From positions 1-64,000 of the forward strand of contig JAJCZH010000002.1 in NCBI GenBank assembly GCA_029262515.1: a DNA stretch of 64,000 bases. The letters are read 5' to 3'. The notes below the pieces were generated by a model that worked only from the letters and a program-made list of their open reading frames with translations, searched no databases and was not told where the DNA came from. The position numbers and the translations under genes are program-made. Of this stretch, positions 15,208 to 17,697 are shown piece after piece (the stretch's first letter is position 1; every line of letters begins with the position of its first letter). Origin of the DNA: Deltaproteobacteria bacterium (GTDB taxonomy: Bacteria; Desulfobacterota; GWC2-55-46; JADFVP01).

Positions 15208-16035
15208 CTACTCTTCCGACTTTCTCTTCTGCTCAAGGTAGATACGATGATCGCGCCGCATGTTACGAACCTTACGGTGGTATAGAATTGCGCCAACCGG
15301 AACATACCAGGTTACCATCCAGGGGCCGTAGATACCGTCTCTTAAAATGGTCGAACCGATGACATGGAGGGTGAGAAGCTGAAAGCCCCAGAGCCCGTTG
15401 GTCCAGTTGAGCGTGAATGAGGTGAAACCGAAGAAGATGAAGATAAACCACTTCCACCTCTGTGGAGGTTTTACTCTTAGACAGGAGTAGAGCGAATAGA
15501 GAATAAAGAGCGGCACCACAATGCTCATAAGGAGCATAGCGTAGTAGTAGACCGGTTTACCGCCAAACTCAAAAGTATTTATCTCGGCCAGGTGGCGCGG
15601 CAGCGCTTCTACATAGAAACCTGAGAGCTTAAAATCGGGGCCGGTATTATGCACGAGCGCCGTAGCATGAACATACCCTTCATCAAGCTGAACCTGATAC
15701 CTTAAATAGGTTCTCTTATTCTTTTTAGTCAGATAAGCCTTTGAATTAATAAATTTTATCAGTTTTATATTAACTATAGGACCTGCGCTATTTAACGTAC
15801 GCGTAGCATCCTCTATTGCCGAACGCGTGCTATCGCCGATAACCCCGGGGTTCATAAGACCGAGGGCGCCGTCAGTGTCGCCAACACCGACGTAAGTGAT
15901 AAAGAAGCGCGTAAACCGGTCGGCCTCATCAGGCAACAGGCTCTCTATATAGAGCGCTCCGTTATTGCAGCCGGAGAGAAAAAAGAGGGCTACGATCAGT
16001 ATCAGGGGCAGTATAGGGGGAAATAGACGATACAT
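15208..16035 (-). CDS. Putative lipoprotein with C-terminal membrane helices, function unknown
   Basis: A 275-aa protein. The signal segment ends in a good lipobox (FFLSGC, residues about 18-23). A soluble region (25-160) has ISTRAIED-type alpha/beta character, followed by three or four hydrophobic segments between about 165 and 250 and a very basic C-terminus. I do not recognise the family. It starts 19 bp after the MetS-like microprotein on the same strand, so it may belong to the NSS-transporter operon. A lipoprotein with additional TM helices is an uncommon layout. Confidence 0.6.
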   Translation of the reverse strand: MYRLFPPILPLILIVALFFLSGCNNGALYIESLLPDEADRFTRFFITYVGVGDTDGALGLMNPGVIGDSTRSAIEDATRTLNSAGPIVNIKLIKFINSKAYLTKKNKRTYLRYQVQLDEGYVHATALVHNTGPDFKLSGFYVEALPRHLAEINTFEFGGKPVYYYAMLLMSIVVPLFILYSLYSCLRVKPPQRWKWFIFIFFGFTSFTLNWTNGLWGFQLLTLHVIGSTILRDGIYGPWMVTWYVPVGAILYHRKVRNMRRDHRIYLEQKRKSEE

Positions 16036-16054: not shown

Positions 16055-16150
16055 TCAATTTTTGGTAAAGATATTGTAGAAGCAGTATATCACAAGAGCG
16101 CTGACAAGGCCCCATGATACTGCAAGAAAAATAAATCCGCTTGTGCTCAC
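16055..16150 (-). CDS. MetS-like small subunit of the NSS transporter (31 aa)
   Basis: A 31-aa single-helix protein reading MSTSGFIFLAVSWGLVSALV, then IYCFYNIFTKN. The initiator GTG (16150-16148) overlaps the transporter's TGA as GTGA. A strong GGGAGG lies about 8 nt upstream inside the transporter gene, indicating translational coupling. Family knowledge: in Corynebacterium, MetS is a tiny membrane subunit encoded directly after the NSS-type transporter MetP and needed for methionine/alanine uptake. Position, length and the MSTS-hydrophobic helix-basic end all fit. It is below the usual gene-calling length cut-off. Confidence 0.75.
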   Translation of the reverse strand: MSTSGFIFLAVSWGLVSALVIYCFYNIFTKN

Positions 16151-17697
16151 TGGTTTCGCCTCCCGCGTCGTTTCCACGCTGCCCTAACCACCGCAAAGTG
16201 GACCATCAGCAGAACTGCCAGAAAGAGTCGCGCAGCCCACACGCCGGTATCCCCGTTTGAAAGTACCGAGGGTAACTGTTCGTACACCCATGCAATCAGG
16301 ATAATACAAAGAAAGAGCGGCGTTATATACTTCATAAAGTAATAAAAGAGACGCGGCACCCTGACCTGGGCGCCTCGATTTATCTCCTCCCATGCCCTGT
16401 CTGAGCCAAAGAACCAGAAGAAGATTATTATCTCAAAAAGCGCAAGTATAACGAGCGCAAAAGTAGCAACCCAGAAGTCGAGTTCGTCGAGGCTGCCCTT
16501 TATAAACATCGGGAGTGCGGTTGTTATCACAAAAAAGAGCGTCAGCCAGAAGACCGCTTTCTTGCGAGACCAGTCGAACTCGTCCTCAAAAAAGGCGATG
16601 ACCGGTTGAGAAAGAGCCACAACTGAGGTAAGGCCCGCAATATAAAGGAGACCGAACCAGAGAAAGCCGAAAAACTCTCCTGCCGGCATGTGGCTGAAGA
16701 TTGCCGGCATGCTGATAAGACCCAAGCTGAAGGCGCCCCCTGCCGACACTTCTGCGGCGCCGTCTACCCCGAAAAAGAGCACTGCCGAGACAATAGCAAT
16801 GGTAGAGCCGAAGACTACCTCGGCAAAACTGTTGAGGCTCGCGGTGGAGAGTCCGTCGAGGGCGATATCTTCATCCCGTTTTATATAACTGGCATAGGTT
16901 ATTACAGCGCCGAGACCGAGCGAGAGCGTAAAAAAGACCTGCCCGGCAGCAGCCAGCCAGACCTTTGCTGAGAAGAGGCCGGACAAGTCCGGTTCCCAGA
17001 GAAAAGCGAAAGCGCGCGCAGTGGTCATTGTAGGGTCTGTCGGGCTGTCTAGTGTGACAATCCTGACAAAAAGAATCGTAGCCATAATAAAGAGAGCGGG
17101 AATAGCGATTTTGCAGAGCCTTTCTATACCGCCCGCTATACCCTTGGCAAGTATCAGCATTCCGCCTCCGAGCGTAATAGCGAAGAAGATGTAGGCCGAG
17201 TAGTGCGGTTTTAGAAATAGACCGTCACCCGTGGAGCCGATATAGGTGCCGAGATAATTTGCATAAGGGGCGAGGTACTCCGACGAACTTGTGGCCCCGA
17301 CAATCGAATCTGCCTCCGGGAAGAAACCGAAGATAGAGGAGATGCTGAACGCAAGCGTCCAGGAACAGATATAGGTATAATAGATCAGGATTACGAGCGG
17401 CAGAAATATGCCGAGTATGCCGACGTACTTCGCAATTCTCGACTTCCACATCGCATCGAAGACGGCAGGCGTGGTACCGTGGCCGATAGAGCCGCCGTAA
17501 CGCCCCATGCCCCACTCTACCCACATGAGCGGAATACCTAAAATAATAAAGGAAATGAAGTACGGGATCATGAAGGCGCCGCCGCCGTTCTCTGCCGCCT
17601 GAACCGGAAAGCGGAGAAAGTTGCCGAGCCCGATGGCGTTGCCCGCCATAGCGAGAATAAGGCCTATCCTCGAACCCCACCGTTCACGTTGTGCCAT
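16147..17697 (-). CDS. Sodium-dependent amino-acid transporter, NSS/SNF family
   Basis: A 516-aa polytopic protein (about 12 TM helices) that imports solutes with Na+. The N-terminus GLILAMAGNAIGLGNFLRFP followed by GGGAFMIPYF is the NSS signature in TM1-TM2. WVEWGMGRYGG and the central ITYASYIKRDEDI region are also typical. The C-terminus is basic (AAWKRRGRRNQ). The stop overlaps the start of the MetS-like ORF. By analogy with MetPS the substrate may be Met, Ala or another neutral amino acid, but it cannot be read from the sequence. Confidence 0.93.
   Translation of the reverse strand: MAQRERWGSRIGLILAMAGNAIGLGNFLRFPVQAAENGGGAFMIPYFISFIILGIPLMWVEWGMGRYGGSIGHGTTPAVFDAMWKSRIAKYVGILGIFLPLVILIYYTYICSWTLAFSISSIFGFFPEADSIVGATSSSEYLAPYANYLGTYIGSTGDGLFLKPHYSAYIFFAITLGGGMLILAKGIAGGIERLCKIAIPALFIMATILFVRIVTLDSPTDPTMTTARAFAFLWEPDLSGLFSAKVWLAAAGQVFFTLSLGLGAVITYASYIKRDEDIALDGLSTASLNSFAEVVFGSTIAIVSAVLFFGVDGAAEVSAGGAFSLGLISMPAIFSHMPAGEFFGFLWFGLLYIAGLTSVVALSQPVIAFFEDEFDWSRKKAVFWLTLFFVITTALPMFIKGSLDELDFWVATFALVILALFEIIIFFWFFGSDRAWEEINRGAQVRVPRLFYYFMKYITPLFLCIILIAWVYEQLPSVLSNGDTGVWAARLFLAVLLMVHFAVVRAAWKRRGRRNQ

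Follow-up and report, generated by a model that had tools for sequence, protein, structure and literature searches.

The locus studied here raised a simple question: does the short open reading frame (ORF) that overlaps the stop codon of a transporter gene encode a protein and, if so, would that protein serve the transporter? The transporter belongs to the neurotransmitter:sodium symporter (NSS) family, and both reading frames lie in the 64,000-nucleotide stretch of DNA that was analyzed (the window). Small NSS subunits are already known for the MetP-like branch of the family. A preliminary description of the window had proposed that the ORF encodes a counterpart of these subunits, a MetS-like microprotein translationally coupled to the transporter and needed by it.

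A 31-codon gene overlapping the transporter stop codon

The transporter gene (16147..17697, minus strand) has 516 codons and ends ...AACCAGTGA. Its TGA stop codon (16149-16147) is overlapped by the GTG start codon of the small ORF (16150-16148), where the minus strand reads ...CGCGGGAGGCGAAACCA GTG AGC ACA..., and the four nucleotides GTGA (16147..16150, minus strand) are thus shared by the two. The small ORF (16055..16150, minus strand) runs to a stop at 16055 and encodes the 31-residue peptide (V/M)STSGFIFLAVSWGLVSALVIYCFYNIFTKN. A Shine-Dalgarno-like motif, GGGAGG (16159..16164, minus strand), is situated inside the codons for the basic tail of the transporter, KRRGRRNQ, and stops 8 nt short of the GTG. 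The overlap, the well-placed Shine-Dalgarno motif and the single hydrophobic helix had all featured in the preliminary description, and each was confirmed; AlphaFold2, run with no alignment, predicted one helix spanning residues 3-30 (mean pLDDT 92). The basic C-terminus that had also been described proved to be weak in the window peptide, which has one Lys there, and real for the family, whose mean net charge is +1.9 after residue 26 versus +0.3 in residues 1-5. Under the positive-inside rule, this surplus of positive charge predicts a cytoplasmic C-terminus. A 40-residue version of the peptide starting from an in-frame GTG at 16177 is disfavored because it is only from the GTGA onward that the sequence is conserved.

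Beginning 19 nt past the small ORF (window 15208-16035, minus strand) is a gene for a lipoprotein-like product of 275 aa with no family match. A same-genus relative (L002) has a similar gene behind the pair, whereas none was seen immediately behind it in the other relatives examined.

Orthologous transporters were gathered from relatives and the DNA directly 3' of each was inspected for a small ORF. Nearly every transporter collected was followed directly by an ORF of 30-40 codons encoding the same peptide, with the consensus MSxxGWxFLxxSWGxVxxLVxFCFYxxFxK, in which M1, S12, W13 and C23 are invariant (profile A1, 24 sequences). The peptide was present behind orthologous transporters in 48 genomes of the phylum, comprising 44 analyzed pairs and further carriers in G045, G359, G411 and G429. 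Over the first 28 codons, in-frame stops occurred in none of 21 homologues, compared with 21 and 5 of the 21 in the other two frames. In addition, pN was lower than pS in all 210 pairs of these homologues, and the first, second and third codon positions differed by 0.33, 0.25 and 0.61, respectively; the alignment downstream of orthologous transporters therefore revealed conservation of amino acids rather than of nucleotides. Comparison with the same-genus relative (92% identical) identified seven synonymous and three nonsynonymous changes, corresponding to a dN/dS of 0.10 (Fisher p 0.0016 for the substitution counts, with sites rounded), and DNA similarity to this relative falls shortly past the stop codon of the small ORF. 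A frame not conserved in close relatives, or a dN/dS near neutral, had been named beforehand as evidence that would count against the ORF. Neither was found, since the frame was free of stops, pN was below pS and dN/dS was low.

Linkage of the small gene to NSS transporters

Profile A1 was searched in six frames through 297 genomes of the phylum, blind to the transporters. Twenty-nine of the 30 strong matches (E < 1e-4) were directly behind an NSS gene, and this arrangement was seen in 29 of 29 genomes with such a match. The thirtieth was a decayed copy in G011, a genome that also holds an intact copy. This second small ORF (L104, G011:C24:49684-49755) has kept its Shine-Dalgarno motif, its ATG has changed to ATA and it has an early stop; it is a duplication remnant, situated some 2.5 kb downstream from the intact pair. 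Weak matches with E > 1e-3 (in G266, G069, G226, G154 and G081) were taken as chance.

The layout of the 44 pairs was similarly consistent, with a 4-nt overlap in 31, an 11-nt overlap in five and the remainder 1 to 263 nt apart. A Shine-Dalgarno-like motif (at least four bases of AGGAGG) preceded the start of the small gene in 35 of the 44 pairs. The codon AGG accounted for 77 of 128 Arg codons (60%) in the last 12 codons of the transporters versus 249 of 655 (38%) elsewhere in the gene, and these sequences suggest that the codons of the transporter KRR tail serve the start of the second gene. With regard to the proposed translational coupling, the 4-nt overlap and the Shine-Dalgarno motif are conserved features, and coupling itself is probable. 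The peptide was still conserved in pairs with longer gaps (L003, L004/L104, L006, L009 and L118), and it is therefore the product of its own gene rather than a frameshifted tail of the transporter; such a C-terminal extension was ruled out by separated homologues that have a start of their own. Distances between small subunits correlated with those between transporters (Spearman 0.58, Mantel p 0.001), a correlation that may reflect shared species history only.

With only 31 residues, a GTG start and no match in Pfam or NCBIfam, the ORF could be suspected of having arisen by chance. However, its conservation across 48 genomes, the selection acting on it and its exclusive linkage to NSS genes leave chance a vanishingly small probability. 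We conclude that the ORF at 16055-16150 is a genuine gene, conserved, arranged as an operon with the transporter gene and linked exclusively to NSS genes. The pairing of an NSS transporter with a microprotein from a stand-alone gene, proposed by comparison with MetS and MetP, is conserved in the 48 genomes. A short gene that overlaps the stop codon of a transporter might also matter through the act of its translation, or through a role in mRNA stability or termination, rather than through its peptide. This explanation is highly improbable and has already been largely refuted, as it is the amino acids and not the nucleotides that are conserved across the homologue pairs, and this conservation holds where the ORF is 22-263 nt away from the transporter gene.

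The LeuT clade and a family related to MetS

The window transporter matched PF00209 (E 9e-59), and its best solved relative was LeuT of Aquifex aeolicus (aq_2077), to which it aligned over its full length (E 2.5e-173, residues 3-512). The next kind of solved relative was 4us3, a bacterial sodium-dependent transporter (E 4e-37). The NSS genes surveyed in the phylum fell into three states: LeuT-type genes with an ORF of the family described above (hereafter SWG-type), another NSS group with a MetS-like ORF, and genes with neither. In a maximum-likelihood tree, the SWG bearers, four non-carriers and Aquifex LeuT formed one clade of 48 rows, apart from other NSS proteins, with 100/100 support. A second tree with more rows recovered this grouping and had LeuT nested among the carriers, as sister to 11 SWG bearers (91/84). 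The window transporter is a member of the LeuT clade of the NSS family.

The four non-carriers (L151, L152, L157 and L159) are genomes of one family in which the small ORF was absent behind the LeuT-clade transporter. They are on a long branch (1.62) in the second tree, which is consistent with loss of the ORF together with fast evolution of the transporter. The ORF is kept elsewhere in the family, in other genera (L167 and L170), providing a natural experiment on subunit loss. Eight further genes (L121, L122, L125, L127, L128, L131, L132 and L133) belong to an NSS group adjoining the MetS bearers on the tree and have no recognizable small ORF, reflecting either loss or an unrecognized partner.

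Acetoanaerobium noterae (Bacillota, L161) has a LeuT-like gene followed by a homologous ORF, MTGAALGFLVITWGIVFSVVGISLKAILDSEKKKK (E 2.4e-8 to profile A3, built from 38 sequences of the SWG family), and the pairing therefore reaches beyond one phylum. The record for this organism, NZ_CP154629.1, is 2.6 Mb in size and labelled a plasmid, and is probably a mislabelled chromosome. A search of viral contigs and phages for relatives of LeuT whose downstream region could be read gave none in the LeuT clade.

The preliminary description had likened the peptide to MetS and suggested an HMM search with the MetS/MaAIMP small-subunit families, which returned no match to the window peptide. More broadly, there was no match to Pfam or NCBIfam at E up to 10, and a search of the source genome with PF16951 and NF033493 identified no match. 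The window peptide did not reach the gathering score of PF16951 and failed the curated 25-bit cut-off of NF033493, with 0 matches at E up to 10. Only one weak NF033493 match was found among 38 homologues (E 0.042, 13.6 bits versus the 25-bit cut-off). The MetS of the Corynebacterium glutamicum MetPS system resembles the window peptide in being small, hydrophobic and paired with an NSS importer of amino acids, but its families, PF16951 (MaAIMP_sms, 60 positions) and NF033494 (53 positions), did not match the window peptide.

The MetS-like family NF033493 has 30 positions. Its canonical members (e.g., MSTGAWIMLIFGCVVLYGGLAWSLLRAKRGRRQ) are found in this phylum next to another, sister NSS clade, whereas the partner of the window peptide is of the LeuT clade. 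The two families share length, a single hydrophobic helix of about 30 residues that starts at the N-terminus, a gene position immediately after an NSS gene, overlaps through ATGA and a start of the form MSxxAW/GW. They differ in that the (Y/W)GG core motif of NF033493 is absent from the window family, which has SWGxVxxL...FCFY instead, as seen in the alignment of profile A3 with A2 (seven sequences of the same-phylum MetS-like family). Comparison of these profiles showed them to be colinear from residue 1 with a probability of 95.8% (95-96%), compared with 0.4% for KdpF and 12.5% for CydX, unrelated single-helix proteins that served as controls. The A3-A2 score was 31.2; the best of 200 column shuffles of A2, which keep composition, scored 15.5, the reversed profile scored 9.0, and none of the 200 shuffles reached the real score. 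The two families are therefore likely to be distantly homologous. As the curated membership tests failed, we assign the peptide to a related but separate family rather than to MetS. A MetS-like identity thus holds by analogy and distant profile homology, and the profile searches place the peptide outside the described MetS families, in a family of its own tied to the LeuT clade.

A putative accessory subunit of LeuT-type transporters

The 31-residue product is very probably a single-pass inner-membrane protein that acts as an accessory subunit of the upstream LeuT-type symporter, co-translated with it, packing on it and tuning its stability, insertion or transport cycle. Translational coupling, physical contact, topology and an effect on transport are the parts of this proposal that we infer, and the function of the helix is read from the analogy with MetPS. 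A ribosome finishing the transporter would reinitiate at the overlapping GTG, or a second ribosome would be recruited there, aided by the Shine-Dalgarno motif embedded in the basic-tail codons, and the transporter and helix would be made in step at the same membrane site. The helix would pack on the twelve-helix transporter by means of a stripe consisting of G5, L9, S12, V16, L19 and C23, together with the adjoining motifs SW(G) and (F/Y)C(F); once packed, it could alter the stability, membrane insertion or turnover of the transporter. Conservation along the peptide peaks at the 100-degree helical period (residues 5, 9, 12, 16, 19/20, 23 and 27), with a permutation p of 0.06 only.

LeuT purified from E. 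coli carried out Na+-coupled alanine uptake in proteoliposomes without a partner (PMC10945697). A strict requirement for the helix is therefore unlikely; because LeuT alone transports alanine, an influence on stability, insertion or rate is likelier than an absolute requirement. The earlier suggestion that the small subunit is needed by this transporter is not supported, given this activity of a purified member of the same clade and the loss of the ORF from one LeuT-type lineage.

The peptide could instead help the transporter to assemble or insert, or serve as a protein-quality-control adaptor, acting during or shortly after synthesis and not as a stoichiometric subunit. Such a role predicts the same gene layout and conservation and, being transient, fits with purified LeuT working alone (PMC10945697). 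However, the conserved motifs run along the whole helix. In addition, the analogue MetS is reportedly a transporter subunit, as Trotschel is said to have described in 2008. We consider an assembly aid unlikely and favor the accessory subunit.

Would LeuT itself have such a partner? Based on LeuT being nested among carriers in the tree, ancestral presence of the ORF in its clade is the simplest reading. The native tail of LeuT, RRRNHESA, resembles the carrier tails RRKEKAHER and GRKEKGHER, and the HE codons of the carriers hold the ATG of the small gene. An ATG arises in the LeuT tail if the His codon is CAT, as in 288 of 576 codon combinations; because half of the codon choices give an ATG, the likeness is no more than compatible with an ORF. 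On these sequence comparisons, we lean slightly towards A. aeolicus LeuT having a natural subunit of one helix, whose gene would directly follow aq_2077, in which case the LeuT structures in the PDB, where there are 27 distinct LeuT sequences, would represent an incomplete complex. A small partner of LeuT was not found in the open-access literature searched, in which LeuT was studied without one.

LeuT is the structural paradigm of the NSS family and a model for the serotonin, dopamine and GABA transporters. What is new here is a putative, probably ancient and previously unrecognized small partner on the LeuT branch, together with the LeuT-clade membership of the window transporter and the nesting of LeuT among carriers. 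The SWG profile lets annotators recover many missed genes of 30-40 codons, and adding the helix to LeuT in vitro offers a direct test of whether its kinetics change. If the proposal is true, textbook LeuT may have an overlooked natural partner, and this model for neurotransmitter transporters would have been studied without it.
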